NCBI GenBank assembly: GCA_025936175.1
Contig: JAICTV010000002.1
Location: 1 to 64,000 of the forward strand
Direction of reading: 5' to 3'
Origin: Phycisphaerae bacterium
GTDB taxonomy: Bacteria > Planctomycetota > Phycisphaerae > Tepidisphaerales > Tepidisphaeraceae
DNA length: 64,000 bases
Under the pieces are notes generated by a model. The model searched no databases, had not been told where the DNA came from, and saw only the letters and a list, made by a program, of their open reading frames with translations. A program made the position numbers and the translations under genes. Positions 4,635 through 57,481 of the stretch are shown here, one piece after another; position 1 is the stretch's first letter, and the number at the start of each line of letters is the position of its first letter.

Positions 4635-6017
4635 TCAACGCGGGGCGCCCGTCTGCTCGAGCAGCTTCGCCAGCTCTGCCTTCATCGTCGCGAGCTGCTG
4701 TTTCGCGCTCTCCTCGCCGATGACGTTCTTCATCTCGTAGGGGTCGTTCTTCAAGTCGTACAGCTCGTCCATGCCTTGCAGGTCCGTGTAGTGGATGTAC
4801 TTCCAGTCATTCGTGCGCACGCCCTGCCAGGTTTCCACGTTGGGGTACATCTTTTCCAGGAAGTACTCGAACAGCGCGGCCTTGCGCCAGTGCGAATCGT
4901 CGCCCTTGAAGAGCGGCACGAGCGATGAGCCGTGTACGTCCTTGATCGGCTCGGCGCCGGCGAGCTCGATGAAGGTCGGGGCGAGGTCGATGTTGAGGAC
5001 CATCGGATCGAGCCTGGTGCCCGGCTTGATCAGCTTCGGGTAGCGCATCACCATCGGGATGCGGATCGACTCCTCGTACGCCACGCGCTTGTCGCCGAGA
5101 TGATGCTCGTTCCACAAATACCCGTTGTCGGAGCTGAAGACGACCAGCGTGTTGTCGAGCTGTCCGGTTTCCTTCAGCGTGTCGAGAATTCTCCCGACGC
5201 TCCGATCGACGCTGACGAGACAGCGGAGCTGATCGCGGATGATTTCATCGGTCACGCCATAAGCCGGATGATCCTTCGGCGGCGGCGCGACTTTGCGGGT
5301 GAGTGCGGGCTTGCCCGCGTCGTCGACGTCCTTCACGTCCGGCCGCTGCGGCAGCGGATCGTCCTTAAACAGGTCCTTGTCTTGATCCGCCGGCCGGTAC
5401 GGGCCATGGACCGCCTTGTGGCCGACGTACAGCGCGAACGGTTTGCCGCCGCGGTCTTTCTTGATGAAGTTCACCGCCTGATCGGTGATGACATCGGTGA
5501 TGTAACCCTTGACGGGCGTCGGCGTGCCGTTGATGTTCAGCGGGCAGTCGATGTAGCGGCCCTGGCCTTTGAAGATCGCCCAGTAGTCAAACCCCGGCCG
5601 CGGCGAGTCGTCCACGCCCATATGAAACTTGCCGATCGCGCCGGTTTCGTAGCCGGCCTTTTGCAGGTGCATCGGGTACGTGTCGAGCTTGTGGCTGATC
5701 GGCCCCATCGCGGCGGTGTTGTTGATCACGCCGTTCGCGTGCGAGTATCGCCCGGTGAAGAAGCAGGCGCGTGACGGCGAGCAAAGCGGGATCGAGACGA
5801 ACGCGTTGTTGAAATACGCGCCTTCGCTGGCGATCCGATCGATGTTGGGGGTTTTCAAAAACGGATGGCCGGCGCAGGAGAGACAGTCCCAGCGCTGGTC
5901 GTCTGTGAGAATGAAGACGATGTTGGGTTTGTCGGCTGCAAGAGAAGAGGAACTGAACCACAGAGAGCACAGAGACCACAGAGAAAGAAAGACCAAGAGA
6001 GAAGACGGCCTTTTCAT
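4635..6017 (-). CDS. Exported sulfatase (alkaline phosphatase superfamily), formylglycine type; signal peptide derived from a repeat
   Basis: 460 residues. After the signal peptide comes the metal-binding NIVFILTDDQRWD (about residue 33), then the formylglycine motif CSPSR (Cys about residue 78), FSSDNGYLWNEHHLG (about 296), and a C-terminal subdomain typical of iduronate-2-sulfatase-like enzymes. It should hydrolyse sulfate esters of polysaccharides outside the cytoplasm. The hydrophobic core of the signal peptide (FLSLWSLCSLWFSSSS) is encoded by a 9-bp tandem repeat forming one arm of an inverted repeat. Its ATG overlaps the ruvC stop (ATGA). The gene sits oddly between ruvC and ruvA. Confidence 0.92.
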   Translation of the reverse strand: MKRPSSLLVFLSLWSLCSLWFSSSSLAADKPNIVFILTDDQRWDCLSCAGHPFLKTPNIDRIASEGAYFNNAFVSIPLCSPSRACFFTGRYSHANGVINNTAAMGPISHKLDTYPMHLQKAGYETGAIGKFHMGVDDSPRPGFDYWAIFKGQGRYIDCPLNINGTPTPVKGYITDVITDQAVNFIKKDRGGKPFALYVGHKAVHGPYRPADQDKDLFKDDPLPQRPDVKDVDDAGKPALTRKVAPPPKDHPAYGVTDEIIRDQLRCLVSVDRSVGRILDTLKETGQLDNTLVVFSSDNGYLWNEHHLGDKRVAYEESIRIPMVMRYPKLIKPGTRLDPMVLNIDLAPTFIELAGAEPIKDVHGSSLVPLFKGDDSHWRKAALFEYFLEKMYPNVETWQGVRTNDWKYIHYTDLQGMDELYDLKNDPYEMKNVIGEESAKQQLATMKAELAKLLEQTGAPR

Positions 6018-6059
6018 TTTGCATTTCCTCTGTGGCCTCTGTCATCTCTGTGGTTCAAC
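5953..6059. repeat. Nonamer-unit palindrome (CACAGAGAN) spanning the ruvC/sulfatase junction
   Basis: The left arm has three tandem units CACAGAGAG, CACAGAGAC, CACAGAGAA. The right arm (6024-6059) is the inverse, with CTCTGTGG and CTCTGTCAT units. Both outer ends carry GAACCACAGAG / CTCTGTGGTTC. The left arm encodes the sulfatase signal-peptide core and the right arm encodes the last residues of RuvC. It belongs to the same architectural class as the heptamer palindromes. Confidence 0.85.
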
Positions 6060-6541: not shown

Positions 6542-6630
6542 ATGAAACCACAGATGAACACGGATGGACACAGATGTAAATGCGAGCGCTATCTCTATCC
6601 GTGTTTATTCGTGTTCGTCTGTGGTTTCAT
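6542..6630. repeat. Palindrome with 9-10-mer units (ACCACAGATGAACACGGATG type)
   Basis: Inverted repeat of about 89 bp between cysS and ruvC. The left arm ATGAAACCACAGATGAACAC and the right arm ending GTGTTCGTCTGTGGTTTCAT are near-perfect inverse copies at their outer ends. Internally the arms are built of CACAGATGA/ACACGGATGG-like units. It lies only 3 bp upstream of the ruvC start codon, so it would be in the ruvC leader of any cysS-ruvC transcript. Related sequence recurs at 22900 and 23101. Confidence 0.85.
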
Positions 6631-8193: not shown

Positions 8194-8670
8194 TCATTGC
8201 ACCGGCGCGAGCAACACGACCGCATGAGCCGCGACGGCTTCGCCGCGACCGATCTCGCCACACCCTTCGTTCGTCCCTGCCTTGATATTGACCGGGCAGT
8301 TCAGAATGTTGATCAAGTGCTCAGCCATCCGCTTTTTGAACGGCTTGAGCTTCGGCCGCTCGGCCATGATGGTGACGTCGCAGTTGACGACGTGCATGCC
8401 GGCGACGCGTAAATGCTCTCTCATCCTGTCGAGGAAAACGGTGCTGGCGGCGCCATTGTACTGCGGGTCGGAATCGGGGAAGTGCTCGCCGATGTCGCCG
8501 ATGGCGAGCGCGCCGCAGATCGCGTCAACGATCGCATGGATGACGACGTCGCCGTCGCTGTGCGCAACAGGCGAGACGCCCGATGCGACGATGACGCCAG
8601 CCATGAGGAGATCGCCGCCGGCCTTGAGGCGGTGGATGTCGTAGCCGTGACCGATGCGGAAGCTAGACAT
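8194..8670 (-). CDS. ispF: 2-C-methyl-D-erythritol 2,4-cyclodiphosphate synthase
   Basis: 158-residue trimeric enzyme of the non-mevalonate isoprenoid pathway, which converts CDP-ME 2-phosphate to MEcPP. The divalent-metal ligands are in GYDIHRL (Asp8, His10) and AHSDGDVVIHA (His about 42). EHFPDSDPQYNGA and the C-terminal IGRGEAVAAHAVVLL also match the family. The start at ATG 8670 overlaps the 3' end of the upstream RAYT gene by 8 bp, and the longer frame upstream is only a shadow of that gene. cysS follows on the same strand. Confidence 0.96.
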   Translation of the reverse strand: MSSFRIGHGYDIHRLKAGGDLLMAGVIVASGVSPVAHSDGDVVIHAIVDAICGALAIGDIGEHFPDSDPQYNGAASTVFLDRMREHLRVAGMHVVNCDVTIMAERPKLKPFKKRMAEHLINILNCPVNIKAGTNEGCGEIGRGEAVAAHAVVLLAPVQ

Positions 8671-9352
8671 TGCTGCCCTCTTGTGTAGGGGCGACGCCTG
8701 CGTCGCCCTGCTCGCCCGATGCGCGCGGCGCGTGCCGCCGATCGATTTCGACGATGCGATCATGAAAACGATCGGTGGCGTCGCCGTCCGGGTTTTCCGC
8801 GTCGTGTGGCCAGCGCAACGGATTAGTGAAGATATATTCGCGAATGTCCTGGAGGGAGGATTCGTTACGGATGACGTGTTCGTAATAGTTCGGTTGCCAA
8901 AGTTTGGTGGCGCTGCCTGGACGGAGTTGGTTGATCCTGCGTGAAACGGCGGATTTGAACGAACCGAGGACGGCGCCGAGAGAACCGGAGGTCGCACCGC
9001 GCGGACGGCCAGAGGGCGACGCTGGCGTCGCCCCTACAGCGGCCGTCGCATTATGTAGGGGCGACGTCTGCGTCGCCCGGTTTCCGATCAGGAAAAGGAC
9101 GCCGTGGACGTGATTCGGCATGATGATGAATTCATCGAGCGAGGCGTTGGCGTGGTGATTCGGAATGTCGTGCCAACATTCGTTTACAATGTGTCCGCGT
9201 TGAGTCAATCGGACGGTATCGCCCGCAACCGTACCGAAAATGCATTCACGATTTCGCACGCAGATTGTAATGAAGTAGCCGCCGTGGTTGCGGTAGTCGT
9301 ACCACGGAATCCGGATTGATCGTCGATGATGTCTTGCCGGATCGTATGACAT
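8663..9352 (-). CDS. REP-associated tyrosine transposase (RAYT, Y1/HUH superfamily)
   Basis: 229 residues. The N-terminal IPWYDYRNHGGYFITICVRN, the HUH motif in IIMPNHVHGVL (about residue 80) and the C-terminal catalytic-Tyr region NYYEHVIRNESSLQDI...IFTNPLRW identify the IS200-like Y1 superfamily, RAYT branch. RAYTs are single-copy endonucleases linked to dispersed REP hairpins. Three hairpins of the type GGGGCGACGCctGCGTCGCCC lie inside this frame (8685-8709, 9013-9037, 9055-9080), encoding the low-complexity loop near residues 91-116 and part of the C terminus; a fourth is just upstream (9366-9390). The C terminus overlaps ispF by 8 bp. Confidence 0.88.
   Translation of the reverse strand: MSYDPARHHRRSIRIPWYDYRNHGGYFITICVRNRECIFGTVAGDTVRLTQRGHIVNECWHDIPNHHANASLDEFIIMPNHVHGVLFLIGNRATQTSPLHNATAAVGATPASPSGRPRGATSGSLGAVLGSFKSAVSRRINQLRPGSATKLWQPNYYEHVIRNESSLQDIREYIFTNPLRWPHDAENPDGDATDRFHDRIVEIDRRHAPRASGEQGDAGVAPTQEGSNV
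8685..8709. repeat. REP-like hairpin, family D copy 1
   Basis: TAGGGGCGACGCCTGCGTCGCCC: a 9-bp self-complementary stem with a conserved TAG(G) head. It is inside the 3' end of the RAYT reading frame (encodes QGDAGVAPT) and 15 bp upstream of the ispF start, so it also lies in the ispF leader. Confidence 0.85.
9013..9080. repeat. Inverted pair of REP-like hairpins, family D copies 2 and 3 (BIME-like)
   Basis: Copy 2 (9013-9037, CCCCTA head to the right) and copy 3 (9055-9080, TAGGGG head to the left) face each other across an 18-nt spacer. This is the head-to-head layout of bacterial interspersed mosaic elements. Both are within the RAYT coding frame, between its HUH motif and catalytic-Tyr region. 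Confidence 0.85.
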
Positions 9353-34938: not shown

Positions 34939-35036
34939 GATTTTCGATTTTGGATTGCGGATTTTGGATCGAAAAACCTCAGCCGGCCCGGTCCGCGTCT
35001 TCAATCCAAAATCCAAAAACCGCAATCCAGAATCGC
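34939..35036. repeat. Heptamer-unit palindrome A7 (TTTTGGAT family) between divergent greA and atpC
   Basis: Left arm GATTTTCGATTTTGGATTGC plus GGATTTTGGATCG; right arm CAATCCAAAATCCAAAAACC plus GCAATCCAGAATCG. Units of 7 (TTTGGAT, TGCGGAT, TTTGGAT) and a 27-nt loop. It occupies the common promoter region of two divergent genes. Confidence 0.83.
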
Positions 35037-40580: not shown

Positions 40581-40582
40581 AT

Positions 40583-40651
40583 CGTAGCATGGCCGTCTCG
40601 GCCATGCCGTGCCGGTAGATGGAGAGGCATGGCCGAGACGGCCATGCTACG
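40583..40651. repeat. Double-hairpin repeat, family C copy 2 (livH-livM junction)
   Basis: CGTAGCATGGCCGTCTCGGC...CATGCC, a 23-nt spacer, and GGCATGGCCGAGACGGCCAT...GCTACG. Each arm is itself a hairpin. It starts 2 bp after the livH stop and ends 7 bp before the livM start. Confidence 0.9.
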
Positions 40652-40658
40652 AAAGCGG

Positions 40659-47242: not shown

Positions 47243-47259
47243 TGGTTCTCGCTTCCCCT

Positions 47260-47328
47260 CGTAGCATGGCCGTCTCGGCCATGCCTTCTCACCTATCGCA
47301 ACGACATGGGCGAGACGCCCATGCTACG
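47260..47328. repeat. Double-hairpin repeat, family C copy 3 (nuoL-nuoM junction)
   Basis: CGTAGCATGGCCGTCTCGGC...CATGCC and CATGGGCGAGACGCCCATG...CTACG. The second arm has GGGCG/CGCCC where the first has GGCCG/CGGCC, keeping its own stem paired. The nuoL stop codon (TAG, 47324-47326) lies in its conserved CTACG/CGTAG end. Confidence 0.9.
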
Positions 47329-49576
47329 AAAGAGCCACGATGATCGCGACGGCCAGTCCGACCGCGACCGCCGCCATCAGGATCGTGACGTACATCCGGA
47401 TTCGTCCGGTTTGCGGCGCGCGGACGGCGGCGCCCAGGTCCTGCGTCATCGTCGCCAGGCCGTTGACGGCGCCGTCGACGATGTACTTGTCGTTGGCGCC
47501 GGCGACGAACGCGGACTGCTTGACCAGCCAACCCGCCAGGTTCACCAGTCCGTCAACGACGTAGCGGTCGAACATCGCCGACATCCACGACAGCGCCATC
47601 ACCCCGCCGACCAGGAACGTGAAGTACAGCTCGTCGAAATACATCCGGCGATACAACCAGATGCGAATAAAAGCGAGCGGCCCGGATTGCGTGAGCGGGC
47701 GGGCGATCCAGTAGCCGTTCATGTAGACGAAGAAGCCGACGCCGATGCCGACGACGAAGGCCCAGGAGACGATCTTTTCCACCAGCTCGTGACCGTGGCT
47801 GAGGGGGTCTTCGCCGTGCGCTTCGGCGGCGTGCTCGGCCTTGATCGGGTGGGGCAGCGCGTGCTCGCCGGCGGGCGGCTCGCCTTCTTCGGCGGCGACT
47901 TTGCGATTCTCCGGCTCGTGCATCGGCCAGGCGGTGCTGAAGCCGGCGAACTTCGGGTCGGTCCGCTGGCACAGCGCGGTGTTCTCCGTCATCGACGCCT
48001 TGATGAGCTCCGACGCGCCGAACCACGGGTACCCGGCGATGATCGCCATCACCGCGAGGATCGCCAGCGGGCCCCAGAGGATTGGCATCTCGTGCGCGTG
48101 GTCGTAGAGGTGCTGATTCCGCGGCTTGCCCCAGAAGGTCAGCATCCAGCAGCGCATCATGTAGAAAGGCGTGACGAAGGCGATGATCGCCGGCAGCGCG
48201 AACAGCGCCCAATACCAGTGCGATCGGCCCGCATGATCCGCCATCGTCGCGAACGCGCCGGCGTGGGCGAGGATCAGGTCCTTGCTGTAGTAGCCGGAGA
48301 GGAACGGCGTGCCCGCGATCGCCAGCACCGCGATGCCGAAGGTCACCGCGGTGATCGGGATCTTCTTCAGCAATCCGCCGTACTGGGAGAGCTCCTGCTC
48401 GTGGTGGGCGGCGTGGATGACGCTGCCGGAGCCGAGGAAGAGCAGCGCTTTGAAGAACGCGTGCGTGATGAGGTGGAATAATCCGCCGACGTAGCTGCCG
48501 ATGCCCAGCGCCATGATCATGTACCCGAGCTGCGACAGCGTCGAGTACGCCAGCACCTTCTTGATGTCCGTCTGCGCGACCGCGATGAGCGCCGCCATCG
48601 TCAAGGTCGTGCAGCCGATGATGGCGATGAAGAGCTTCGCGTCCGGCGTGAGGATCGGAAAGATCCGGCCGACGAGGTAGACGCCGGCGGCGACCATGGT
48701 GGCGGCGTGGATCAGCGCGCTGACGGGCGTCGGGCCTTCCATCGCGTCAGGGAGCCAGACGTGCAGGGGAAACTGCGCGCTCTTGCCGACGGCGCCGAAG
48801 AACAACCCGATGCCCATCGCGGTGAGCATCGTCGCGCTCATGACCACGCCGTTGGGCAGCGTCAGTTGCGAGACGAGGTGCCCGTCCACCCGGCCCGCGC
48901 CGTTGAGCGCGATCCACATGTTCGGCAGCGAGACGTTGCCCAGGTGATAGAACAGAATGCCAAAGCCGATGAGGAAACCGAAGTCGCCGACGCGGTTGGC
49001 GACGAAGGCCTTGATCGCCGCGTTGGAGGCGGACGGCTTCTCGTACCAGAATCCGATCAGCAGGTAGCTGCACAGGCCGACCAGCTCCCAGAAGATGAAC
49101 AGCTGAAGCACCGTCCCGCCGATCACCAGCCCGAGCATCGAGAAGCAGAAGAGCCCCAGGTAAGTGAAGAAGCGCGGGAAGCGCTTGTCCTCGCGCATGT
49201 AGCCGATCGAGAAGACGTGTACGAGCGTCGCGACCAGCGTGATCATCGCGAACATGGCGACGGTCAGGCTGTCAACGTAGATGCCGACGTCGAGGTAGCC
49301 GGGGTGCGTCTGATCGATCCCTTCGCCGACGGGGATCCAGCGCATCGGCATGTTGATCGGCGCTTTTTCAAAGCCCCACTCGGCGTTGTTGTAGGTCCCC
49401 TTGTTGTACCAGGAGACCATGGCGGCCATCGAGCAGAGGAAGCTGCCGGCGATCATGGCCGTCCCCACCCAGCCGGCCAGCGGGTTGCCCATGCGCTTGC
49501 CGACGAACATGAGGATCACGAAGCCCGCCAAAGGCAGGAGCGTCGCGATCAGGAGCATTAATGCGGGTGGCGGCAT
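47324..49576 (-). CDS. nuoL: NADH-quinone oxidoreductase subunit L, with His/Glu-rich insertion
   Basis: 750 residues, the distal proton-pumping subunit with a long lateral helix at the C terminus. FVANRVGDFGFLIGFGILFY, FPLHVWLPDAMEGPTPVSAL and IHAATMVAAGVYLVGR are conserved. It is longer than the usual ~610-650 residues because of a hydrophilic loop at about residues 540-605 (PENRKVAAEEGEPPAGEH, KAEHAAEAHGEDPLSHGHEL). The stop codon belongs to a family C repeat. Confidence 0.96.
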   Translation of the reverse strand: MPPPALMLLIATLLPLAGFVILMFVGKRMGNPLAGWVGTAMIAGSFLCSMAAMVSWYNKGTYNNAEWGFEKAPINMPMRWIPVGEGIDQTHPGYLDVGIYVDSLTVAMFAMITLVATLVHVFSIGYMREDKRFPRFFTYLGLFCFSMLGLVIGGTVLQLFIFWELVGLCSYLLIGFWYEKPSASNAAIKAFVANRVGDFGFLIGFGILFYHLGNVSLPNMWIALNGAGRVDGHLVSQLTLPNGVVMSATMLTAMGIGLFFGAVGKSAQFPLHVWLPDAMEGPTPVSALIHAATMVAAGVYLVGRIFPILTPDAKLFIAIIGCTTLTMAALIAVAQTDIKKVLAYSTLSQLGYMIMALGIGSYVGGLFHLITHAFFKALLFLGSGSVIHAAHHEQELSQYGGLLKKIPITAVTFGIAVLAIAGTPFLSGYYSKDLILAHAGAFATMADHAGRSHWYWALFALPAIIAFVTPFYMMRCWMLTFWGKPRNQHLYDHAHEMPILWGPLAILAVMAIIAGYPWFGASELIKASMTENTALCQRTDPKFAGFSTAWPMHEPENRKVAAEEGEPPAGEHALPHPIKAEHAAEAHGEDPLSHGHELVEKIVSWAFVVGIGVGFFVYMNGYWIARPLTQSGPLAFIRIWLYRRMYFDELYFTFLVGGVMALSWMSAMFDRYVVDGLVNLAGWLVKQSAFVAGANDKYIVDGAVNGLATMTQDLGAAVRAPQTGRIRMYVTILMAAVAVGLAVAIIVALS

Positions 49577-49585
49577 TTTTCTTTT

Positions 49586-49653
49586 CGTAGCATGGGCGTC
49601 TCGCCCATGCCGTTTCCCTTGCTCGAAGGCATGGCCGAGACGGCCATGCTACG
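49586..49653. repeat. Double-hairpin repeat, family C copy 4 (nuoK-nuoL junction)
   Basis: CGTAGCATGGGCGTCTCGCC...CATGCC and GGCATGGCCGAGACGGCCAT...GCTACG. Here the first arm has the GGGCG/CGCCC version and the second the GGCCG/CGGCC version, the reverse of copy 3. It starts 2 bp after the nuoK stop (minus strand). Confidence 0.9.
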
Positions 49654-50010: not shown

Positions 50011-50074
50011 TTATTTGCGATTTGCGATTTGCAATTTGCAATTGAGTTCAATCACAAATTGCAAATTGAAAATC
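50011..50074. repeat. Heptamer-unit palindrome A6 (TTTGCRA family), nuoJ-nuoK junction
   Basis: Tandem 7-mers TTTGCGA, TTTGCGA, TTTGCAA, TTTGCAA, then an inverse arm CACAAATTGCAAATTG...AAAATC. It is AT-rich, in contrast to its surroundings. It fills the whole gap between nuoJ and nuoK, in the position taken by family C repeats at other nuo junctions. Confidence 0.85.
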
Positions 50075-52139: not shown

Positions 52140-52355
52140 AAGAATCTAACCCGCGCGATCGACCTGAGACGCTGTGCACTCCGCGGGGCAAGTGGTTCTA
52201 TCGGGATGACTTATGAGTGTCAACACTTCACCGGAACTCACCCGGCGACGAGCAGCCGTTGACCGGCCGCCGGCTTGCGCGGGCTGGCGCGGCCCGACCC
52301 GGGCGCGCCGTTATCGGGCCACGCAAGCGTCGTTGGCGATGGTTGGACAGCCATC

Positions 52356-52557
52356 GCCGATGCACCAGAAGTCGTTGCCGATGCATCGGGAATCGCTGCC
52401 GATGCATCGGGAGTGATTGCCGGTGCATCAAAAATCGTCGCCCATGCATCGGCGAACCGTTGCCGATGCATGGGGAATGACTGCCGGTGCACGGAAAGTC
52501 GCTGCCGATGCATCGGCAATCATTTTTGGTGCATCGGGAATGACTGCCGGCGCGCCG
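52356..52557. repeat. Tandem array of nine 21-bp units with palindromic core CCGATGCATCGG
   Basis: Units follow GCCGATGCATCGGGAATCGCT; nine complete copies plus a partial tenth, all 21 bp except the fifth (22 bp). The perfect 12-bp palindrome CCGATGCATCGG is present or one or two changes away in most units. It lies in the 503-bp gap 52140-52642, 217 bp upstream of nuoH and 86 bp past the pterin dehydratase gene. The rest of the gap has no clear feature. All frames stay open through it because 21 is divisible by 3, but I do not think it is coding. Confidence 0.85.
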
Positions 52558-52984: not shown

Positions 52985-53006
52985 GACGGCTCCTTGCGGG
53001 GTTGAA

Positions 53007-53087
53007 CACGTGGATAGTAGATGGTGGATGGTAGATAGTGAACGCACGATCGACACCATCTACCATCCACTATCCACCATCCACGTG
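53007..53087. repeat. Heptamer-unit palindrome A3 (GTGGATA/GTAGATG family)
   Basis: Left arm CACGTGGATAGTAGATGGTG...GATAGTG, right arm CACCATCTACCATCCACTAT...CCACGTG, loop about 13 nt. Units: GTGGATA, GTAGATG, GTGGATG, GTAGATA. It sits between divergent genes, ending 13 bp before the phosphatase start codon. Confidence 0.9.
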
Positions 53088-53100
53088 TTAGCTTAAGAGG

Positions 53101-57411: not shown

Positions 57412-57481
57412 ACGTGGATAGTAGATGGTGGATCGTGGATCGTCGCTTCCACCATCCACTATCTACTATCCACCATCTACG
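57412..57481. repeat. Heptamer-unit palindrome A5 (GTGGATA/GTAGATG family)
   Basis: Left arm ACGTGGATAGTAGATGGTGG...ATCGTGGATCG, right arm CCACCATCCACTATCTAC...ATCTACG, loop about 6 nt. It lies between convergent genes, 12 bp after one stop and 3 bp after the other. Confidence 0.9.

Follow-up and report, generated by a model that had tools for sequence, protein, structure and literature searches.

The palindrome lying across the junction of the ruvC and sulfatase genes of a Phycisphaerae bacterium is probably a stand-alone copy, non-autonomous or relic, of an inverted repeat associated with genes of the GxxExxY family, which was later coded into the C-terminal tail of RuvC and into most of the core of a predicted signal peptide. 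The DNA analysed, hereafter the window, is a stretch of 64,000 nucleotides from a MAG of 5.5 Mb in 384 contigs that is 86% complete. Repeat detection, ORF coordinates, shuffles and RNA folding all bear out the proposal of an initial annotation that an inverted repeat spans the overlapping ruvC stop and sulfatase start. The two arms are 33 nt long and separated by a 38-nt spacer (Table 1), and TRF assigns to both a period of 9, that is three codons, as had been noted. The two-unit pattern CACAGAGNNCACAGAG, allowing at most 2 mismatches, has 4 matches in the window, all at this palindrome, for an expected 0.38; this number was reached in 0 of 100 shuffles.

The predicted fold of the palindrome RNA, read on the coding (minus) strand, has an energy of -61.3 kcal/mol (z = -9.7), with the sulfatase AUG mostly within the apical loop. 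The ruvC stop (6014) and the sulfatase start (6017) overlap as ATGA and, together with the SD-like AGAGG, make translational coupling from ruvC to the sulfatase plausible on the basis of sequence. A ribosome finishing ruvC would open the hairpin stem and thereby couple translation of the sulfatase; opening of a stem by the ribosome of the upstream gene is a standard coupling arrangement.

Table 1. Features of the ruvC/sulfatase junction (window positions) and other loci at which an arm contributes to a protein N-terminus.
Feature	Position	Strand	Basis and remarks
Sulfatase, 460 aa	4635-6017	-	PF00884 and SGSH_C, Pfam 3.4e-60; predicted Sec signal peptide
Predicted signal peptide MKRPSSLLVFLSLWSLCSLWFSSSSLA	5937-6017	-	Codons 1-27; from sequence and hydrophobicity
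Left-arm-encoded part of the h-region, LSLWSLCSLWFS	5952-5987	-	Codons 11-22
Left arm	5954-5986		Three CACAGAG units on the + strand; CTCTGTG units on the - strand
Loop	5987-6024	-	Holds the ruvC stop and sulfatase ATG; encodes the n-region MKRPSS and LLVF
ruvC, 174 aa	6014-6538	-	Domain search
Repeat-derived RuvC tail LNHRDDRGHRGN	6023-6058	-	Residues 161-172; absent in relatives
Right arm	6025-6057		88% complementary to the left arm
SD-like AGAGG	6027-6031	-	Part of the right arm; 9 nt upstream of the sulfatase ATG; base-paired in the predicted hairpin
Second palindrome, same class	6542-6630		10-bp units AACCACAGATGAACACGGATGGACACAGAT; arms 6542-6575 and 6597-6630
L226, L231			TonB receptors, two species of one genus; Pfam
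L227			Kelch protein; Pfam
L225, L271			TPR proteins; Pfam
L266			VWA/DUF4159; Pfam
L222			GH99 with lipobox; Pfam
L224			PQQ propeller; Pfam
L272			BPD_transp_2 permease; Pfam
L255			S1/P1-nuclease-like protein; true start may be after the arm; Pfam
L208	1440-2612		Contig C243 of the source genome (G000); 391-aa protein without Pfam match; N-terminus MKSFIPLCMLCVLCGSSAFG, then EEH

The conserved domain of RuvC ends near residue 152-155, and the final 12-14 residues of the protein come from the right arm. The initial annotation had ascribed an extra RuvC tail to this arm, which is what the translation gives, and the RuvC proteins of relatives end in other sequence and lack the tail. Several relatives have ruvA directly following ruvC, so the presence of the sulfatase gene between the two is derived. 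Different palindromes are found directly behind ruvC in five relatives (L004, L005, L009, L014 and L021), an indication that palindromes have reached such junctions repeatedly and independently.

On the sulfatase side, the ATG sits in the palindrome loop; the loop encodes residues 1-10 and the left arm residues 11-22, and the cleavage region lies beyond the repeat. The N-terminus reads MKRPSSLLVFLSLWSLCSLWFSSSSLA up to the predicted cleavage point and ADKPN after it, and its sequence has the parts of a Sec signal: an MKR n-region, the h-region LLVFLSLWSLCSLWF, and small residues at -3/-1 (SLA before the cut and AD after it). The left arm had been proposed to be the core of the signal peptide; this stands for residues 11-22, while F10 and the last S residues of the h-region lie just outside the arm. 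The peak hydropathy, 2.10, is just at the low end of that of five homologues (2.13-3.03). The C-x-P-x-R motif of sulfatases is intact as C-S-P-S-R (PLCSPSRACFFTGR in translation), in a protein belonging to PF00884. Within the family, the nearest homologue shares 48% identity with the sulfatase; at this identity and below all homologues examined have unrelated signal sequences, none sharing this signal without a palindrome. The sulfatase would be exported by means of an arm-derived predicted signal peptide. Elsewhere the repeat is intergenic and here it encodes both protein ends, which supports the view of a non-coding repeat turned into protein parts; the initial interpretation, which also had the palindrome fuse the two genes into one transcription unit, is partly supported as a whole.

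The two arms differ in what they encode. When all spacer variants are translated, CTCTGTG units are hydrophobic whichever of the three frames is read (mean hydropathy 2.49, 0.84 and 1.98), with stops in 4 of the 48 spacer/frame combinations; the corresponding values for CACAGAG units are -1.22, -1.90 and -2.51, without any stop. On each strand, the 5' arm hence consists of hydrophilic codons (HRD/HRG) and the 3' arm of hydrophobic, almost always stop-free ones (SLW, LCV, SVV). Because the element is a palindrome, genes running out into it read the hydrophilic arm and genes starting in its loop read the hydrophobic arm: the former gain a hydrophilic tail, the latter a signal-peptide-like N-terminus.

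The GxxExxY proteins (TIGR04256, PF13366 PDDEXK_3), an uncharacterised and widespread PD-(D/E)XK family, were first met directly behind CACAGAG arms in an orientation control, and inspection of the loci located their genes between CACAGAG and CTCTGTG arms. Among 30 GxxExxY loci of relatives taken regardless of repeats, all 30 have inverted arms on both sides of the gene, with alignments that beat all 100 shuffles. The same arrangement was found at 2 of 29 control ruvC loci and at 8 of 142 size-matched control ORFs, where one locus, L025, itself holds a GxxExxY gene. Flanking inverted arms are also present at 25 of 29 cross-phylum GxxExxY loci, from genomes chosen for carrying CACAGAG arms, one of them (L411) being low-complexity and weak. 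Conversely, 45 of the 49 genomes with three CACAGAG units possess a GxxExxY gene. Arms and gene co-occur in 392 Planctomycetota genomes (52/62 versus 132/330, Fisher p = 9e-11, relatedness ignored), and arm similarity tracks GxxExxY protein similarity (Mantel r = 0.32, 0/2000 permutations). A PDB search with GxxExxY returned nothing significant, and PADLOC a weak Cas4-like match. To note, about ten CACAGAG units form an expanded array that flanks a GxxExxY gene at L272/L273 (genome G225), which suggests expansion in unit number.

A search for three exact CTCTGTG units finds them in at least 117 contig stretches, with archaea represented alongside many bacterial phyla. The arms around GxxExxY genes vary in type, including CACAGAG, CGCAGAG, CACGAAG, CATGAAG, CACAGATGAACACGGAT and others; those of the window follow the design of the class as defined here, about three tandem 8-10-bp units of CAC/CGC-AGAG, CACGAAG or CACAGATGAACACGGAT type, in inverted orientation. 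The dispersed arm type of a genome tends to match its GxxExxY flanks. As predicted before the search, CATGAAG pairs number 51 in G041 and 52 in G050, as compared to 0-2 in 59 others, and these two genomes are the only ones with a GxxExxY gene between CATGAAG arms. The 24 CGCAAAG pairs of G052 were likewise predicted; other genomes are also rich in this type (27 pairs in G044, 60 in G010 and 26 in G016), so the match is not one-to-one. In G010 and G016, one CGCAAAG arm lies about 100 nt from the GxxExxY gene. CACGAAG arms are more scattered, with 22 in the source genome itself.

A GxxExxY gene was found neither between the window arms nor elsewhere in the 86% of the source genome that is assembled, and the palindrome is thus a stand-alone copy or relic and not a full element: either the window copy is a relic, or its enzyme is encoded in the missing 14%. 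Between the cysS stop and the ruvC start lies another palindrome of the same class, with the cysS TGA in its first bases, so that ruvC is bracketed by two palindromes of one class. The arm type of this second copy is also found around the GxxExxY genes of L382 and L383.

In the full element, inverted arms built from tandem units of 8-10 bp would enclose the gene of a GxxExxY PD-(D/E)XK nuclease, by which the element would be mobilised. A copy lying between ruvC and the sulfatase gene would have extended RuvC and supplied the SD-like AGAGG through its right arm, the ATG and charged n-region of the sulfatase through its loop, and most of the h-region through its left arm, the sulfatase's own sequence providing the cleavage site.

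The use of an arm as a protein N-terminus is not confined to the window. Searching the 392 Planctomycetota genomes for ATGA followed after 6-36 nt by two CTCTGTG units gave matches in 46 of them, as compared to a single match overall in a backwards control. Among the matches listed, the frame is open through the arm at 79 of 97 distinct sites, and 21 of these 79 belong to an ORF of at least 90 aa. The CTCTGTG arm forms the hydrophobic N-terminal core in about nine further loci in these genomes, the candidate signal peptides being judged by eye; one lies in the window's own genome and one is common to two species. The Pfam-matched proteins with arm-derived N-termini are nearly all of envelope or exported types (Table 1). 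A third unit, which the search did not ask for, is present in 8 of 10 loci (L226/L231 counted once, window included): at 1-nt spacing it matches 8/8 bases in L231, 7/8 in L222 and L225, and 6/8 in L226 and L227, and in L208 the preceding unit matches at 6/7; further cases have a 2-nt spacing. L224 and L281 are without a third unit and may therefore be convergent. The full palindrome is found only in the window and in L271, the other signal-peptide cases keeping a single arm; as most are single-armed and two have no third unit, chance convergence is possible for some of them. Convergent codon use was rejected as a full explanation of these cases, since a control 14-mer optimal for signal peptides (CTTGCTG twice) is far rarer: 11 matches in the 392 genomes, about 3 of them signal-peptide-like, versus more than 100 matches and 10 signal-peptide loci for CTCTGTG.

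In the orientation control, the only Pfam-matched proteins with N-terminal CACAGAG arms, in a scan that left out eight ORFs of at most 133 aa, are two GxxExxY proteins, one protein with a periplasmic-binding domain and a plausible internal start, and one FGE protein in which, once more, a CTCTGTG-like arm encodes the hydrophobic stretch. At L332 (301-1161), an FGE-sulfatase frame, read from a putative start, runs through a whole palindrome and takes its hydrophobic stretch from the second arm. Around position 3900 of L122, a CTCTGTG arm within a long ORF immediately precedes a C-terminal segment resembling a T9SS sorting signal (YPNPFNSTLTV), and is possibly an in-frame insertion. Among 160 arms of an unselected cross-phylum sample, convincing signal-peptide use is essentially absent, hence such reuse is rare.

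This rarity would suit a hairpin that acts as an RNA or DNA structure, such as a terminator, an mRNA stabiliser or a REP-like site, with the overlapping coding being incidental and neutral, as would the great stability of the hairpin and the second palindrome on the other side of ruvC. Such a role as the whole explanation appears unlikely, however, as no alternative start of the sulfatase would plausibly provide a charged n-region and removal of the arm would leave the protein with no h-region, and arm-derived N-termini recur elsewhere on exported protein types. It is more doubtful still that the sulfatase is untranslated from this ATG, or silent, and owes the look of its signal peptide to the hydrophobic reading of the repeat. 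Any ORF entering an arm does look like a signal peptide, because the arms are hydrophobic in every frame, but the 460-aa sulfatase is intact with its C-S-P-S-R, AGAGG stands 9 nt before the ATG, the n-, h- and c-regions are consensus-like with SLA and AD around the cut, and an arm-derived N-terminus has been kept in the two species of L226/L231.

A REP or REPIN origin of the palindrome, with mobilisation by a RAYT transposase encoded at 8663-9352, can be given hardly any credence, although this RAYT-like Y1_Tnp ORF is only 2.6 kb away. The palindromes in or near it are GC-rich (GGGCGACGCTGGCGTCGCCCCTAC, 9014-9078) and of another type, CACAGAG arms are associated with GxxExxY genes both as their flanks and by co-occurrence, and the window arm sequences lack the REP/REPIN tag GTAG or CGTC, as named in the title of PMC3733652.

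The window holds repeats of other kinds. The GC-rich REP palindrome at 9014-9078 (GGGCGACGCTGGCGTCGCCCCTACA) is within the reading frame of the RAYT-like ORF itself. Inverted repeats with 7-bp units (CGGGTAT, GATTTTG, GTGGATA and others) represent a separate class, at 1240-1305, 34939-35034, 50019-50074, 53005-53089 and 57414-57473. A REP-like hairpin, TCGTAGCATGGCCGTCTCGGCCATGCC, recurs at 40582-40652, 47259-47329 and 49586-49653, and a degenerate 21-bp tandem repeat, which contains strong palindromes, occupies 52333-52553 in about 9 copies.

Beyond the window, we see an even chance that GxxExxY spreads or maintains tandem-unit palindromes throughout prokaryotes, ready-made cassettes that would give rise, time and again, to new signal peptides; the proposed parts of such a cassette are an SD-like site, a start in the loop and a hydrophobic arm. 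That such repeats bracket GxxExxY genes suggests that they are what is left of a mobile or repeat-maintenance system about which little is known. If the reading given here for the window palindrome is right, it provides a concrete route from a non-coding repeat to a protein-targeting signal, with a codon rule predicting when this is possible. It would also tie very common, unexplained palindromes of bacteria and archaea to one uncharacterised nuclease family, making the origin of both directly testable. Annotators meeting an N-terminus like LSVFSVV or SLWSLC, or a tail like NHRGHRG, would then be warned that it is repeat-derived. In the literature searched (subscription journals and preprints were outside its scope), neither a description of these repeats nor a link between them and GxxExxY was found, the family being mentioned only in passing, in two papers, and the novelty of the link is thus provisional.

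Several known systems share features with the window element. In the GxxExxY family (TIGR04256, PF13366), genes lie between inverted arms of the window type, whereas the window copy carries none. Rickettsia palindromic elements are palindromes within protein-coding frames; they are inserted inside proteins, whereas the window element lies across the junction of two genes. The REPIN/RAYT systems (PMC3116915, PMC2817692) likewise combine dispersed short palindromes with the gene of a related enzyme that has the same arms on either side, the enzyme copies being few and the palindromes many. Their enzyme is an HUH Y1 transposase and their repeats are tagged hairpins, as compared to a PD-(D/E)XK family protein, GxxExxY, and tandem 8-10-bp units of presumed mobility. 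The closest precedent in terms of coding is that of ERIC (RU-1), YPAL (RU-2) and RU-3, small mobile sequences that are found joined in frame to genes (Delihas 2007, PMC2759123). In YPO1552, whose homologues have unrelated signal peptides, YPAL accounts for part of the predicted signal peptide, and a similar idea of repeat-derived signal peptides is therefore already published (PMC2759123). These are, however, single families of 103-168 bp in enterobacteria, whereas the palindrome described here is of a generic tandem-unit design with representatives in many phyla, and which of its ends turns hydrophobic can be predicted from its codon logic.
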